Below, piece after piece: positions 30,925 to 37,677 of a stretch of DNA of 64,000 nucleotides. A model generated the notes under the pieces. That model had not been told where the DNA came from and did not search any database. It saw only the letters and a program-made list of their open reading frames with translations. The number at the start of each line of letters is the position of its first letter. The first letter of the stretch is position 1. The stretch spans positions 1,116,001 through 1,180,000 of the forward strand of contig NZ_BSDC01000001.1 in assembly GCF_030268045.1 (NCBI RefSeq). Direction: 5' to 3'. Position numbers and translations under genes: made by a program. This DNA is from Geothrix edaphica (GTDB lineage Bacteria; Acidobacteriota; Holophagae; Holophagales; Holophagaceae).

Positions 30925-32901
30925 TCACTCCGCCGGCTCCCGCAGCAGGGCCAGCACGGACTTGCCGAAGGCCGCGGGCTCGAAGGGCTTTTCCAGGAAG
31001 CCGATCCGGCGCAGGCCCAGGGACGCCGGGTCCATGGGCAGGGGCTGGTCCATGCCGATCACCAGGGTGGGTATGGGCTCTTTCTGGAAAGTGCGGAGCG
31101 CCCGGTGGAAGCGCTCCAGTTTCGGCGTCCGCTCGAGCACCAGCACGTCCGGCTGGGCCAGTCCGCGGCTCCCCCGCAGGAGCTTCGGCAGGTCTTCGAA
31201 CGTCCCGGCCTGGCCCCCCAGCTGCCAGACCAGGTCTGCGAGGGCGCTCCGGACCAGCGGATCGCGGTCCACGATCCAGAGGGTCCGCCCTGAGAGCAGC
31301 GCGCCCGCCAGAGGCCGGACCGGCGCAGCCACGGGCAGGTAGACCCGGGGCCGCACCCCCGAGCGGGCATCCTGCTCCAGCTCCAGCATGCCGCCGGCCT
31401 CCAGCACGGATTGGCGCAACCACCCGAGGCCGAACAGCTCCCGGGTCCAGCCCCCGGGCCCTCCCACCGGCTCCGCATGGAGCAGTCCGAAGCCATGGCC
31501 CCCCAGGTCCGCGGCCTCGAGGGTCAGCACCAGGTCTTCGCGGCCCGTGCGTTCCCTGGCATGGAGCAGGAGCTGCGTGGCGATGCGCTTCAGGGCCTCC
31601 GCCTCCACGGCCAGAGACAGGGATGCGGCCCTGAGCTCCATGCTCCGGCCCGCCGGGAGAAGCCTCCGGAGGCCCGGCAGCAGCGCCTCCAGCGTGGCCC
31701 GGCCCTCCACTGGTCCGCGCTCCGGCTGAGTCGGCGACAGCCTCCGGGTGGCCTCCCCCACGCGCTCGGCGGCCTCCCGGAGCGGGCCTGCCGGAGCATC
31801 CGACAGCAGCCGGTCGGCGGCGGCGGCGAGGGCCAGCATCGCGTTGGCGCCTAGCCTCCGCTGCTCCTCGTCGCCGCCGGACCGGGGGGAGGCGCCGGCC
31901 CGCAGGGACAGGGCCCCGGCGACGGCATTGGCGATCCACACCAGGCCCATGCCGCGGTCGAAGGCCGAGGCCTCGAGGACGACCTCGCTGAAGCTCCCGT
32001 CCTCGCTGACCTGGGTGGCGGTCACCGAGGCGCTTCCGAACTGGAGGAGCTGGTTCCGGATGGCCTGCCAGACCGGCAGCTCGCCCCCCTGGAAGAGCGC
32101 ATCCATGGGGTAGCCCCGCAGCTGGTAGCGGGGCAGGCCCACCAGCTGGCTGAAGGGACCGTTGGATTCAAGGACCCGGCCCTGGTCGTCCACCAGCCAC
32201 ATGGGCTGGCGCGGATCGAGGCCCAGGGCCAGTCCGGGCAGTTCCGCGGGCCCGGCCTTCTCCACCAGGGCCAGAGCCAGGCGGAGGCCCTGACCGCGCC
32301 CTTCCACCCAGGCGCCCTGCTCCCGGAGCCACTTCAGCTGCTGGAGGGCCACTAGGCCGAGGAGCAGGCCCGCGAGGATGGCCGAGAGCCAGGAGAAGCG
32401 GGGTGCGTCCGGAGGCAGCAGCAGCTGGGCCAGGGCGCCCGCGCCCAGGGTGAGGGCCCCGACGAGGGGCATCCGCAGCTCCAGCTGGCGTCCGTGGGTC
32501 CACCGGTAGGCCAGGTCCGAGAGGACCAGCCAGAGCAGGGCCTCCAGGGCCGCGCCGGCCCACAGGTGCAGCACGGCCTGCCAGGGCAGGTGGAGCCGGA
32601 CCAGCAGCAGGGCCAGGAAGAGGCTGGCGCTGCCCACGCCCACGGCCAGCCGGCGCACGCCCTGGACGCCCTCCCGCTGAGCCTGGAGGAAGATCGTGAA
32701 CCCGAGCAGGGCCCCGCCGAGCTGGGCGGCCGGCAGGGGCAGGCCCGTGAGGTGGCCCCAGGGCAGGGCCAGCACCGCGAGGATCCCGCCCAGGAAGTAG
32801 CCGTAGCTGAGGCCCACGCGGCCCTTGCGGCGGAAGGTCCAGAACCCCAGCCAAGGCGGAAGGGGCAGCAGCAGGGCCGAGATCAGGTCTGCGAAGGCCA
32901 T
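30925..32901 (-). CDS. Membrane PAS protein with degenerate kinase and receiver domains
   Basis: A 658-residue protein. Residues 1-190 hold about six or seven membrane helices. A PAS-like domain follows (about 228-330; DPRQPMWLVDDQGRVLESNGPFSQLVGLPRYQLRGYPMDALF). The kinase-like region (350-560) has no H-box His and no recognisable N or G boxes. The last 120 residues are a receiver fold, but the phosphoacceptor Asp is Glu590 (VLVLERTPKL), while the pocket IVDRDPL and Lys in FLEKPFEP remain. It is probably a signalling scaffold unable to phosphorylate. It sits 37 bases upstream of glmU, so a cell-envelope link is possible. Confidence 0.75.
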   Translation of the reverse strand: MAFADLISALLLPLPPWLGFWTFRRKGRVGLSYGYFLGGILAVLALPWGHLTGLPLPAAQLGGALLGFTIFLQAQREGVQGVRRLAVGVGSASLFLALLLVRLHLPWQAVLHLWAGAALEALLWLVLSDLAYRWTHGRQLELRMPLVGALTLGAGALAQLLLPPDAPRFSWLSAILAGLLLGLVALQQLKWLREQGAWVEGRGQGLRLALALVEKAGPAELPGLALGLDPRQPMWLVDDQGRVLESNGPFSQLVGLPRYQLRGYPMDALFQGGELPVWQAIRNQLLQFGSASVTATQVSEDGSFSEVVLEASAFDRGMGLVWIANAVAGALSLRAGASPRSGGDEEQRRLGANAMLALAAAADRLLSDAPAGPLREAAERVGEATRRLSPTQPERGPVEGRATLEALLPGLRRLLPAGRSMELRAASLSLAVEAEALKRIATQLLLHARERTGREDLVLTLEAADLGGHGFGLLHAEPVGGPGGWTRELFGLGWLRQSVLEAGGMLELEQDARSGVRPRVYLPVAAPVRPLAGALLSGRTLWIVDRDPLVRSALADLVWQLGGQAGTFEDLPKLLRGSRGLAQPDVLVLERTPKLERFHRALRTFQKEPIPTLVIGMDQPLPMDPASLGLRRIGFLEKPFEPAAFGKSVLALLREPAE

Positions 32902-32925: not shown

Positions 32926-33630
32926 TCACGGAAGCGTGGCGGGCCAGAGGCCGCGAAGGGCATTCAGGCACCAGAGCCGCCCTCCGCCGCAGTCCTCGAG
33001 GGAGATGGGCGCGCGCTGCAGCAGCCACCCGTGCTCCTCGGCCCAGGCAGGGAGGTCCAGCCGCTCGGCGACACTGGCCACGCGGCCTTCAGGCGGCGGC
33101 AGGGTGAGCGTACCGGCCCGCTCCAGGGCCACCGTGGCGATGGCGCTCTCCGCGAGGGTGCCATCCGGCCACAGCAGCAGAGCGTCCTCGGCGCCATGCC
33201 GCCAGGCCTCGGCCAGGGCCTGGGGGCGCCAGGGGCCGGAGAGTCCCTTGTGCGGCGCCAGGGGGTCCGGGCGCAGATCGCCCATGGGGTGGGGCAGGGG
33301 CGCGAGGCGATAGGGTGTGGACGGCGGGGGCAGGGGCTCCAGGCGGGCGTCCAGGAGCTTGAGATCCAGGCGGAGTTCCAGGCGCAGGGCGGCCTCCGGG
33401 GCCGCATGCCGCTTCAGCCAGTAGCCGAGTTCCTCCGTGGCCTCGGGCAGCCAGGGGGAGGCGTGCCCCAGGGCCTTGGCTCCGGCCTGGAGGCGATCCA
33501 GGTGGGCCGCCAGGTGTCGGGGCGTGCCCTGGCGGACCGGCAGGGCCGTGCGGGGAACCGCGGCGCCCTGGGGTTCCGTTCCATGCAGGGTCGCGCCCGG
33601 CCCGAAGGCGGCTCGGAGGGCGGGACTCAA
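32926..33630 (-). CDS. pabC: Class IV aminotransferase-fold protein, likely 4-amino-4-deoxychorismate lyase
   Basis: A 234-residue PLP fold-type IV protein. The PLP lysine is probably in LAPHKGLSGPW, and the cofactor-side motif DALLLWPDGTLAESAIATVALERAGTLTLPP matches the D-amino-acid transaminase/PabC group. The usual GVLPGVTR after it is altered to EGRVASVAE. PabC makes 4-aminobenzoate for folate. I chose a TTG start that overlaps the pdxA stop (TTGA); no in-frame ATG is near. The gene is very GC-rich, and neither pabA nor pabB is nearby, so the substrate assignment is tentative. Confidence 0.7.
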   Translation of the reverse strand: MSPALRAAFGPGATLHGTEPQGAAVPRTALPVRQGTPRHLAAHLDRLQAGAKALGHASPWLPEATEELGYWLKRHAAPEAALRLELRLDLKLLDARLEPLPPPSTPYRLAPLPHPMGDLRPDPLAPHKGLSGPWRPQALAEAWRHGAEDALLLWPDGTLAESAIATVALERAGTLTLPPPEGRVASVAERLDLPAWAEEHGWLLQRAPISLEDCGGGRLWCLNALRGLWPATLP

Positions 33631-34829
33631 GGCTCGGCCACCCGGGCGGTCCAGGGTTCCCCCTGCGCCCGCCCCGCGAGCCGCACGGCCAGGGCCGCGG
33701 CCTCGAGGAAGTTCCGCGGATCCGCGATCCACCGGCCCGCCTTGTCGAAGGCGGTGCCGTGATCGGGGCTGGTGCGGATGAAGGGCAGGCCCAGGGTGAG
33801 GTTCACAGCCCGGCTGGGCTCCAGCAGCTTGATGGGGATGAGGCCCTGGTCGTGGTAGAGGGCGACCACCAGATCGAACTCGCCCGAGACGGCGCGGTGG
33901 AACAGGCTGTCCGAAGGCAGGGGACCGGAGAAGCGCGGCCCGCGGGGGCCCGAAGCGGGTCTGGGAACCGGGGGCTCGCCTGGATGGAGGGTCCATCCAG
34001 CGGGCGCGGGCTCGGCCGGAAAGGGGGAAGGCAGGCTGGCGAAGGGGCCCGCGGGCCCTGCTTCGCGGAAGGCCGCCTCGGCCCGGTCGCGGGCTTCTGC
34101 CAGCAGGCGCTCTTCGTCTCCGAACGCCCCGGCCTCCCCGGCGTGGGGATTGAGGGCGCAGAGGGCCACGCGGAGATCCGGGTTCCCCGTGAGCTGGATG
34201 AACCGGCTGGCGGAGAAGGCCAGGGTTTCCGCCACGGCCTCCGCGTCCAGGTCCTCCACCACGGAGCGCAGGCTCTGGTGGACTGTGTGCAGCACCACGG
34301 ACAGGCGGGGGCTCACGAAGGCCATGCGCGTGAGGGGCGCGCCGGCGAGCGTCTGGAGGTATTCGGTGTGGCCGGGGATGGGGTACCCGGCCAGATGCGC
34401 GGCGGACTTGGCCATGGGCAGGGTGGTGAGGGCGTCCGCCGCCCCGGACAGGGCCAGGCCCGCAGCCAGGCGGATGGCCTCCACGGTGGCCCGGCCGGAG
34501 GCGGCGGAGCCGCGGCCCAGGACCAGCTGGCCGGTGTGGATCTCAGGCGTTGGGTCAAGCCAGAGCGCAGTGGTGGAGCCGCCGAGGTTCTCCACTTCGA
34601 GGCCGCAGGCCGTCCCCAGGAAACCCTCCGGCGCCGGAGCGGGGGCATCCGCCCACCGCCAGTTCACGAGCCTGCCCTCAGTGCCCTTGAGGAGGTCCAC
34701 GCCAGCCCGCGCCCCGACCACGACCACGTCGGCCCAGGCTCCCAGGATCGGCAGGGACCGCAGCAGCAGCTCGGGCCCGATGCCGCAGGGATCCCCCAGG
34801 GTGATGGCGATGCGCGGTGGGCGGCTCAT
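33627..34829 (-). CDS. pdxA: 4-hydroxythreonine-4-phosphate dehydrogenase
   Basis: A 400-residue PdxA, an NAD-dependent enzyme of pyridoxal phosphate synthesis. Conserved parts are IAITLGDPCGIGPELLL, TLPMAKSAAHLAGYPIPGHTEYL, CALNPHAGEAGAFGDEE, LVVALYHDQGLIPIKLL and LGLPFIRTSPDHGTAFD. Usual length is near 330. The excess is an Ala/Pro-rich insertion of some 50 residues between the EERLLAEA helix and the GPLPSDSLFH strand. It overlaps the PLP-dependent pabC-like gene, joining cofactor maker and user. Confidence 0.93.
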   Translation of the reverse strand: MSRPPRIAITLGDPCGIGPELLLRSLPILGAWADVVVVGARAGVDLLKGTEGRLVNWRWADAPAPAPEGFLGTACGLEVENLGGSTTALWLDPTPEIHTGQLVLGRGSAASGRATVEAIRLAAGLALSGAADALTTLPMAKSAAHLAGYPIPGHTEYLQTLAGAPLTRMAFVSPRLSVVLHTVHQSLRSVVEDLDAEAVAETLAFSASRFIQLTGNPDLRVALCALNPHAGEAGAFGDEERLLAEARDRAEAAFREAGPAGPFASLPSPFPAEPAPAGWTLHPGEPPVPRPASGPRGPRFSGPLPSDSLFHRAVSGEFDLVVALYHDQGLIPIKLLEPSRAVNLTLGLPFIRTSPDHGTAFDKAGRWIADPRNFLEAAALAVRLAGRAQGEPWTARVAEP

Positions 34830-34854: not shown

Positions 34855-35337
34855 TCAATCGTAGGCGGCGATCTCCACTTCCGTGGTCAGCGGTTCTTCC
34901 TTCTTGGACGGGCGGCTCCGGCGGATCCGGGGCTCCTCCTCCTGCTTGTAGATGTACTTGATGTTGTGCTTGGGCACGAGGACGTTGGGTTCCTTCACCC
35001 GGTTGATCTTCAGGCAGTGCTTGTCGTACCACTCGATGACGCCGCGCACCTTTTCATCGTCCTGGAGCACGATCACCATCGGCGTCTTGGACTGCATCTG
35101 CTTGAGGTAGTAGAAGCTCTCGGCGTTGGTCTGTTCGGGCGGCGCGATCTTGCGGCGGGGACTCCCCAGCCCCTGGGGCGCCGTGGCCGCCGAGGGGTTG
35201 ACCACCGGATTCGGTTCGCCGCTCGGCGTGAGCGAGGGAGGCACGGGTGTCATGGCTTCTCCGCCGCCCCCCTTGGCGGGAATACCCAGCTTGTCCTTGA
35301 GTTCGCTGAGGTTCGGTCGGATGAGCTTGCGGTTCAT
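34855..35337 (-). CDS. Divergent Hfq-like Sm-fold protein with N- and C-terminal extensions
   Basis: A 160-residue protein whose centre (about 69-131) reads as an Hfq/LSm fold: EQTNAESFYYLKQMQSKTPMVIVL, then DDEKVRGVIEWYDKHCLKI and VPKHNIKYIYK. The KHNIKYIY end corresponds to the Hfq Sm2 motif (YKHAIS), and the start helix matches the Hfq QxxxLxxLR pattern. Hfq is usually near 70-100 residues. Here a 65-residue Pro/Ser-rich N-terminal arm and a 28-residue charged tail (RIRRSRPSKKEEP) are added. It likely binds RNA. The assignment rests on motif reading; the gene stands 25 bases upstream of pdxA. Confidence 0.72.
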   Translation of the reverse strand: MNRKLIRPNLSELKDKLGIPAKGGGGEAMTPVPPSLTPSGEPNPVVNPSAATAPQGLGSPRRKIAPPEQTNAESFYYLKQMQSKTPMVIVLQDDEKVRGVIEWYDKHCLKINRVKEPNVLVPKHNIKYIYKQEEEPRIRRSRPSKKEEPLTTEVEIAAYD

Positions 35338-35381
35338 GGCAGATCCTGGCCCGGTGGGCAGTGCGGGAGATGTCAAAGGCA

Positions 35382-35532: not shown

Positions 35533-37206
35533 TTACGCCGGATCCTCCTGCTGCGCCAACAGCTCTTCCGGTGGATGTTCCGGTAGGAAAATCCTGACCC
35601 GGGTGCCGGTCCCGGGCCGGCTCTGGACATCGATGCGCCATCCCATGGCTTCGGTGAACTTGTAGACCAGGCTCATGCCCAGCCCCGATCCCTCCTCGAA
35701 ACTGCCCGAGAACGGGACGAACAGACGATCCAGTTGATCGGGGGCCATGCCGCAGCCGTTGTCCTCGACCATCAGCCGGATCCGGCCCCCGGTGACCTGG
35801 GCCGAAAGGGTGACCCGAGGCGAGGGGACGCCCTTCACCGCCTTCCGGGCGTTGCTCAGGAGGTTCATGAGCGTCCGGTGCAGGCCCACGGGATCCGCGT
35901 GGAGGAGGGCCTGGGGGGGCTCCTGCAGGCTGAGGGGCAGGCCTTCCGTCCGGGGATCCATCTCCCAGCTTGCGCGGGCCTCTTCCAGGACGCGGGCGAG
36001 GGGAAGCACCTTGCCGGGCGCGGCCTCGGGCCTGGCCAGATCGAGGAAATCGGAGACGATGGCGCCCACCCGCTGGGTCTCCCGATCCAGGATGCCCAGC
36101 ACCCGGCCCCTGACCTCCTCTGGCGCCCCTTGCCGGTGCAGCAGCTGCACGCAGCCGCTGATGGAGGCCAGGGGGTTGCGGAGCTCGTGGGCGAGGCCGG
36201 CCGCGAGCTGCCCGATGGCCGCAAGACGCTCGCTGATCCGGGTGCGTTCCTCCAGGGCCTTGAGCTCGGTCAGATCCTGGAACAGCAGCAGCTGGCCTGT
36301 TTCCTGGCCCCCCGGTCCCCGGAGGGAGGTCAGATGCCCGCCCAGGATCTGCGGATTCCGGCCCTCCTGGGGACGGGCGAGCTCGAACCGGTGCTGGGCT
36401 GGCAGGGGATCTCCTAGATCGAGGAGCTCCTGGATGGGGAGGCCCATGGGCACGGGCCGTCCGAGGATGGCTGCCGCGGCGGGGTTGGCGGACGTGATCC
36501 GTCCCGCCGGGTCCAGGGTGACGAGGCCGGAGGACATGGACTCCACCACCCGGAGATGCAGGGCCGACAGCTCGTCCACCGTGGCTTCGCTGGCGCTCAG
36601 GTCGGTCCGCAGCCGATCGAGGCTCCGGCGGATGAGGACCAGCACCAGGGTCGCGGCGAAGATCTGCAGCGAGGCGATGCCCAGCAGGAACGGCAGGCGG
36701 CTTCCCTCCAGATCCAGGCCCTCGCCGGACAGGCCGAACGGCGGGATCAGGCCCAGCGTGAAGCCCAGCACGAGCAGGATGTGCGACATGGAGGAGACCA
36801 CGCCCACCCAGACGATCTCCGTGGTGCCCAGATAGAAGGCGGAGGCCAGCACAGGGAAGATGTAGAGGGTGGAGAAGCGCTCCTGGACCACGCCCTGGTA
36901 GGCGATGACCAGGGTGACCAGGCCCAGGTCCAGCACGAGGTTCCACCAGATCCACGGCAGGGTGGGGGTGGGGAAGATCTGGCCCCGGTCCCGGAGGCCC
37001 TGGCCCGCCTCCGCCACCGCCTCGATGAGGAAGAGGGCCAGGGCGGCCAGGTACAGGTCCTCGCCCGGGCCCACGACCCGCCCCTCGGCCGGCAGCGCGA
37101 GGTGCAGCACCAGCAGGCCGAAGCTGGCGTAGAGCCGGAAGGCGAGGGGAAGGAACGGCTGGCTGGCATCCGTTGCGCCAAGCCGGCCCAATGTGCGCTG
37201 GAGCAT
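35533..37206 (-). CDS. PilS/NtrB-type membrane sensor histidine kinase
   Basis: A 557-residue kinase. Six hydrophobic helices (about 20-195) are followed by a coiled linker, a PAS domain (about 220-330; VVESMSSGLVTLDPAGRITSANPAAAAILG) and a canonical kinase. The H-box is LAAGLAHELRNPLASI, the N-box LLSNARKAVKG and the G boxes EDNGCGM and GSGLGMSLV. This order is that of PilS/ZraS kinases, which pair with sigma-54 activators; no response regulator is adjacent. Alternative ATGs lie 12 and 28 bases upstream of the chosen one, so the start is uncertain. Divergent from the fur-like gene. Confidence 0.88.
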   Translation of the reverse strand: MLQRTLGRLGATDASQPFLPLAFRLYASFGLLVLHLALPAEGRVVGPGEDLYLAALALFLIEAVAEAGQGLRDRGQIFPTPTLPWIWWNLVLDLGLVTLVIAYQGVVQERFSTLYIFPVLASAFYLGTTEIVWVGVVSSMSHILLVLGFTLGLIPPFGLSGEGLDLEGSRLPFLLGIASLQIFAATLVLVLIRRSLDRLRTDLSASEATVDELSALHLRVVESMSSGLVTLDPAGRITSANPAAAAILGRPVPMGLPIQELLDLGDPLPAQHRFELARPQEGRNPQILGGHLTSLRGPGGQETGQLLLFQDLTELKALEERTRISERLAAIGQLAAGLAHELRNPLASISGCVQLLHRQGAPEEVRGRVLGILDRETQRVGAIVSDFLDLARPEAAPGKVLPLARVLEEARASWEMDPRTEGLPLSLQEPPQALLHADPVGLHRTLMNLLSNARKAVKGVPSPRVTLSAQVTGGRIRLMVEDNGCGMAPDQLDRLFVPFSGSFEEGSGLGMSLVYKFTEAMGWRIDVQSRPGTGTRVRIFLPEHPPEELLAQQEDPA

Positions 37207-37242
37207 AGGATCCAGCATGCCCGAATCTGGCATCCTAGGACC

Positions 37243-37677
37243 ATGTCCGACCCCGGTCCCGCCTCCTCGCCCTCCCTGCGTGCCGCCGGCATGCGGCAGA
37301 CGCCCCAGCGCGAAGGGATCCTCCAGGTGCTCAAGGACTCGGACCGCCCGCTCACCGTGGAGGAGATCTGGGAACGCATGCCGGAGCGGCGCTCGGGCCT
37401 GCCCACGGTCTACCGGAACCTCGAGCGCTTCGTGCAGGAGGGCTGGGCCGAGAGCATCATGGGCCCGGACCAGGTCATGCGTTTCGTCCGGTGCGACTCG
37501 CGCCGCCACCACCACCACCTCCAGTGCGAGCGCTGCGGACGCACGGTGGAGGTCGATGCCTGCGGGCTCGATGAATCGCTGATCGAGCTCGAGACCCTTT
37601 CGGGGTTCCGGATCACCCGGCACCAGCTGATGCTCTTCGGCCTCTGCCCTACCTGCCGATCCGAAAAAGACCGTTGA
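37243..37677 (+). CDS. Fur-family metal-responsive repressor
   Basis: A 144-residue Fur-superfamily protein. The winged helix includes MRQTPQREGILQVLKDSDRPLTVEEIWERM and the recognition segment GLPTVYRNLERFVQEG. The dimer part has HHHHLQCERCGRTVEVDACGL and the C-terminal CPTCR, giving two CxxC pairs for structural zinc. Fur, Zur and PerR cannot be separated with confidence. The -35 box of the tRNA-Gly promoter overlaps its stop codon. Confidence 0.9.
   Translation: MSDPGPASSPSLRAAGMRQTPQREGILQVLKDSDRPLTVEEIWERMPERRSGLPTVYRNLERFVQEGWAESIMGPDQVMRFVRCDSRRHHHHLQCERCGRTVEVDACGLDESLIELETLSGFRITRHQLMLFGLCPTCRSEKDR

Follow-up and report, generated by a model that had tools for sequence, protein, structure and literature searches.

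A phylum-wide family of Hfq-fold LSm paralogues in the Acidobacteriota, with a member in Geothrix edaphica

The LSm gene of Geothrix edaphica

The window analysed here, a stretch of 64,000 nucleotides from Geothrix edaphica, carries on its minus strand a gene (34855..35337) for an LSm paralogue with a predicted Hfq fold, consisting of 160 codons and a stop, with a translation beginning MNRKLIRP. An alternative upstream ATG would extend the ORF to 183 residues. However, the 160-residue form is preferred, because the relatives of this protein start at NRKLIRP or within a few residues of it (one aligned row, L064, ends at a contig edge), and because a Shine-Dalgarno-like AGGA (35344..35347, minus strand) lies 6 bases before this ATG. 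An initial annotation described the protein as twice the usual size of Hfq, which is true in comparison with proteins of about 80 residues, but it is only 1.6 times as long as E. coli Hfq (102 residues).

The protein begins with a short motif (residues 1-17, MNRKLIRPNLSELKDKL; 35287..35337, minus strand), which is followed by an arm (residues 21-66; 35140..35277, minus strand) that is mostly disordered by prediction and differs in length among relatives. With 10 Pro, 7 Gly, 6 Ala and 4 Ser in 46 residues, this arm is proline-rich, as initially described, but it is better termed Pro/Gly/Ala-rich than Pro/Ser-rich. The Sm core (residues 67-134; 34936..35139, minus strand), delimited by profile matches and a structural model, includes the KHNIKYIY segment on which the Sm-like assignment had been based, and is modelled as a helix (72-82) and five strands (86-91, 96-103, 108-112, 119-122 and 126-131). 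The C-terminal tail (residues 135-160; 34858..34935, minus strand) had been called basic, which holds for its RIRRSRPSKK portion but not for the acidic stretch thereafter.

Codon differences between this gene and six Geothrix relatives, summed over all six, are distributed unevenly: 61 synonymous and 2 non-synonymous in the core, 20 and 6 in the N-terminal 20 residues, and 101 and 46 in the arm. These counts indicate strong purifying selection on the core and the tip and more drift in the arm, and the near-exclusively synonymous differences in the core rule out a chance ORF or antisense artefact. No match to the protein was found among the plasmids or phages searched, and none of the 51 stretches in viral contigs that fit the pattern is a relative of the LSm family; a mobile-gene reading is unsupported.

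Downstream, at a distance of 25 bases, lies pdxA (33627..34829, minus strand), a neighbour that is kept within the class, and upstream lies a PAS histidine kinase gene (35533..37623, minus strand), which is also a neighbour in the Holophagaceae loci that were compared. Elsewhere in the window, a 658-residue protein (30925-32901, minus strand) has sub-threshold PAS matches only, and its end appears by eye to be receiver-like, with a glutamate replacing the phosphorylated aspartate. A Memo-like protein (PF01875; 37945-39168, plus strand) has what looks by eye like a signal peptide.

Predicted fold and profile matches

The predicted Sm/Hfq fold covers residues 70-133. An AlphaFold2 model based on 31 sequences contains a confident helix and five strands over residues 72-131, with pLDDT above 90 in the core (91-95 in ten-residue blocks) and below 50 in most of the arm; the N-terminal motif has no confident placement in either of two models (pLDDT about 58). 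The best Foldseek match to the model is Caulobacter Hfq (6gwk; E 1.1e-5, TM by target 0.89), to which the Geothrix protein is 32% identical over 63 columns. In VIA-align, many Hfq structures are matched at Z of about 11-12 and are mostly tied, the top row being Synechocystis Hfq (Z 12.3, 1.6 A over 66 residues), itself tied with others; all 50 matches listed are Hfq-type entries, although the lack of other folds among them carries no information. The Sm fold is well supported as a prediction, and the resemblance to Hfq proposed in the initial annotation extends to the predicted structure.

The same annotation suggested that standard Hfq searches could miss the protein, and this depends on the profile that is used. 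Pfam PF17209 (Hfq; 24.2 bits versus a cut-off of 27) and NCBIfam TIGR02383 (20.1 versus 61.7) fall short, as does NF047718 (Hfq_rel_Cyano; 27 versus 52), but PF21979 (Hfq_1) scores 31.6 bits against a cut-off of 27. Neither the PF21979 match (residues 81-129) nor that of NF047718 (82-129) extends beyond the Sm core. All 40 LSm family members match PF21979 at E 0.01 or better, and one, L068, passes PF17209 (35.1) and fails TIGR02383 (33.2). The archaeal and eukaryotic Sm profile PF01423 (LSM) gives the Geothrix protein 14.1 against a cut-off of 23.4, and a search of the whole genome with it returned no matches. PF17209 and PF21979 each have one match in this genome, and in both cases it is the LSm gene; a canonical Hfq elsewhere in the genome was looked for by profile and was not found.

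A family apart from canonical Hfq

Related stretches were detected 193 times in genome contigs, and the best 80 of the 193 were examined. Among these 80, two (L053 and L076) bear Bacillota or Acidimicrobiia names, but their proteins resemble those of Acidobacteriota and they are taken to be mislabelled MAGs. The family architecture consists of an N-terminal NRKLIRPxLxExK motif, a linker and the Sm core, and the full pattern comprises RKLIRP at the N-terminus, EQTNAESFYYLKQM ahead of the core, and then EWYD, K, PN, K, I, Y and K. An RKLIRP-type motif is present in 40/40 members of the family alignment, a count that is not independent, given that the aligned members were selected by models that contain the motif; two matching genomes (G246 and G042) align only from profile position 27-29, and the motif there may be absent or split. 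The linker between motif and core measures 21-60 residues (median 27), and the Geothrix protein is at the long end with 60. The long arm that had seemed to be a hallmark of the protein is therefore a stretched linker, and what stays constant is the short motif that it carries at the tip. Canonical Hfq, by comparison, usually has an N-terminal tail of 4 residues, according to an excerpt of PMC6561178.

No cross-matches between the LSm-family profile and the profile of canonical Acidobacteriota Hfq were observed at E 1e-4 among the fetched loci. In a tree built from 63 columns, a single clade on a long branch holds all 40 LSm sequences (SH-aLRT 84.6, UFBoot 89); its neighbour is Anabaena Hfq (84.4/95), a partial sequence, and this placement is not relied upon. 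A W..D..C pattern in Sm1 is common to the LSm family and to the Caulobacter and Anabaena Hfqs. The family and canonical Hfq (PF17209, TIGR02383) also have in common the Sm fold, with its N-terminal helix and five strands as modelled, and the equivalents of D40, G34, K56 and I59, in what we take to be the Hfq numbering.

Burkholderia offers a precedent for an additional, longer Hfq-like protein alongside the canonical one: its Hfq2 is described (PMC7074383) as having a C-terminal extension, with about 58% sequence identity between the two genes. Unlike Hfq2, the LSm proteins have an N-terminal extension with a conserved motif, and they are far more divergent from Hfq. Among the open-access papers searched, no publication describing the LSm family was found, nor any paper on the use of an Hfq-type protein in Acidobacteriota.

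Distribution in the Acidobacteriota and the Holophagaceae

The LSm family profile matches 198 of 297 Acidobacteriota genomes, or about two thirds. The canonical Hfq profile matches 151 before filtering and 143 after, eight matches (E 1e-8 to 1e-3) having been dropped as cross-matches to the LSm gene; all eight genomes hold an LSm match, and in the one whose match positions were listed (G161) the two overlap. Both genes are present in 92 genomes, LSm only in 106, canonical Hfq only in 51 and neither in 48. There is no association between the two (Fisher p 0.46, a descriptive value only, as the genomes are related), and the presence of LSm consequently does not track the loss of canonical Hfq.

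The coexistence of both genes in 92/297 genomes rules out a simple divergent orthologue of Hfq. The initial view of a lone divergent Hfq must be abandoned in favor of a separate family, in which, moreover, most RNA-contact positions are changed (see below): the Geothrix protein is a member of a phylum-wide Acidobacteriota family of Hfq-fold paralogues, apart from canonical Hfq.

Within the Holophagaceae, the profile search detected canonical Hfq in none of the 77 genomes, and the LSm gene is present in 65 (45 of the 48 that are of good quality). The same canonical profile finds Hfq in 5/6 genomes from the two remaining families of this class, which serve as a positive control. In four loci of these sister families canonical hfq follows miaA, as in E. 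coli (by eye; miaA was confirmed by Pfam in one), whereas the LSm gene of Geothrix is not at the miaA locus, and no Hfq match lies within the 7 kb surrounding the single miaA of its genome. Apart from the LSm protein, no Hfq-type protein was detected in the Holophagaceae, and to this extent the nomination of LSm as a candidate RNA chaperone of the lineage stands; that it acts as an RNA chaperone is a hypothesis.

Three small and apparently reduced Holophagaceae genomes (G174, G297 and G298; 0.9-1.2 Mb) were found to have neither canonical Hfq nor LSm.

RNA-contact positions in the core

The cores of 50 canonical Hfq sequences and 40 LSm sequences were compared site by site, in a register that agrees with the phmmer alignment and with positions named by an E. 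coli Hfq numbering that is in part assumed. In Hfq, Q8 and H57 belong to the proximal uridine pocket, and R17 and R19 to the rim. In the available excerpt of PMC6239178, K56A, Y25D and R16A are the proximal, distal and rim mutants of Hfq, and F42 is counted as a proximal position.

Most of these positions are altered in the LSm family, and many of the replacements are themselves invariant or nearly so. All 40 sequences have E at the Q8 position, W at S38, Y at both F39 and T61, and K at L45, and there is M at R16 in 39, E at I30 in 38 and V or I at Y25 in 36. At R17 the residue is mostly Q or N, and at F42 it is H, N, S, T or G in most sequences. D40 is retained, K56 is retained in 40/40 (K123 of the Geothrix protein) and H57 in 23/40, and the R19 position is still basic (K or R) in 38/40. 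Neither the proximal pocket of Hfq (Q8/F42/K56/H57) nor the distal Y25 with the rim R16/R17/R19 is preserved as a set. On average, the LSm core carries a net charge of +1.7, which is lower than the +3.0 of canonical Hfq.

Uridine recognition by the proximal pore is strongly conserved among Hfq homologues, according to the section of PMC6561178 available. In the LSm family, the contact positions have mostly been swapped for other conserved residues and have not decayed, which suggests that the core is under selection for a function different from that of canonical Hfq.

Gene neighbourhoods

Among 83 loci scanned, pdxA was found in 54, including two from a sister family, and within the class it follows the LSm gene. 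In more distant loci the LSm gene is preceded by tmk (11 loci) and holB (12 loci). In the two sister-family loci (L162:586-5001 and L164:2200-6703), a gene for an RNB-domain exonuclease of the RNase R type, a PSP1 gene (RicT-type), LSm and pdxA occur together, with LSm between the upstream PSP1 gene and pdxA and with the RNB-domain gene beside PSP1. In Bacillus, RicT acts together with RNase Y, and these neighbors are suggestive of a role in RNA decay, but no more: the arrangement is limited to 2/83 loci, the others having tmk-holB (DNA metabolism) or pdxA and the histidine kinase, and the genomic context is thus weak evidence. No partner gene was linked to LSm across families in the 83 loci.

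In a locus from another family, a convergent neighbour of LSm (L163:3636-3908, minus strand) encodes 91 residues that are faintly Sm-like, with an Lsm as the best PDB match (E 1.2, not significant).

Possible functions of the LSm family

Given these data, it is possible, with about an even chance in our estimation, that this phylum-wide Hfq paralogue is an RNA-binding ring with changed recognition and a tethered docking motif, probably active in RNA processing or decay. Like other Hfq-fold proteins, it would form a ring, and the changed proximal face of this ring would bind single-stranded RNA via the retained K123 (K56 of E. coli Hfq), which the new invariant residues E73, W103, K110, R113, Y128 and K131 may join. 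Such a ring would be without the arginine-rich rim of Hfq, and it would for that reason be a poor matchmaker of sRNAs and mRNAs. Each subunit may extend its RKLIRP motif on a tether, as a hook for docking a partner that would most likely belong to RNA processing or decay. The lower net charge of the core and the low confidence in the placement of the motif speak against this reading, and the genomic context lends it little weight. A more far-reaching version is tentative, and we would sooner doubt than accept it: the family would add to Hfq and the cyanobacterial type another kind of Sm ring in bacteria, with RNA-recognition faces rebuilt around new invariant residues and with RKLIRP hooks, one tethered to each subunit, that recruit an RNA-decay or RNA-processing enzyme, and it would be the sole Sm-family riboregulator of the Holophagaceae.

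The absence of canonical Hfq from all 77 Holophagaceae genomes, when 65 have LSm and the control genomes mostly have Hfq, and the lack of an Hfq match at the Geothrix miaA locus, could also mean that LSm is the working Hfq of this family of bacteria, having taken over sRNA-mRNA matchmaking after the loss of the canonical protein. However, across the phylum LSm occurs about as often in genomes that have canonical Hfq as in those that lack it, and the rim arginines, the distal Y25 and the proximal Q8 and F42 are replaced. According to PMC6561178, an Hfq that lacks these arginines may show little annealing activity and may have its role elsewhere in RNA metabolism. A takeover is considered unlikely. 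Another reading, by analogy, is that the main activity of LSm is attachment to a protein machine, with RNA binding secondary, as cyanobacterial Hfq docks onto the pilus ATPase PilB1 (PMC4390875). The closest profiles include Hfq_1 and Hfq_rel_Cyano, Synechocystis Hfq heads the tied VIA-align rows, the conserved N-terminal motif resembles a docking peptide, and the tree groups the family weakly with Anabaena Hfq. That tree, however, has 63 columns and its Anabaena sequence is partial, which leaves room for long-branch attraction, and no gene for a partner stays linked to LSm from one family to another in the loci scanned; a primarily docking role seems rather unlikely. The changes at most Hfq RNA-contact positions would also fit a protein that has the Sm fold but no function involving RNA. 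This is very improbable in view of the universal K56, the basic residue at R19 in 38/40 sequences and several newly invariant residues that are basic or aromatic.

The combination of a kept Hfq fold, swapped contact residues and a tethered motif indicates which residues to mutate and a peptide to use as bait. The genomes with both genes suggest that LSm is not redundant with canonical Hfq, and the Holophagaceae, in which LSm is the only copy detected, are a clean system for testing its role. Acidobacteriota are abundant soil bacteria. With no other Hfq-type protein found in its family of bacteria, the gene is a concrete target for testing how RNA is managed in these organisms.

Two or three LSm copies are found in some Acidobacteriota genomes, for example with three matches in G043 and two each in G121, G210 and G265.
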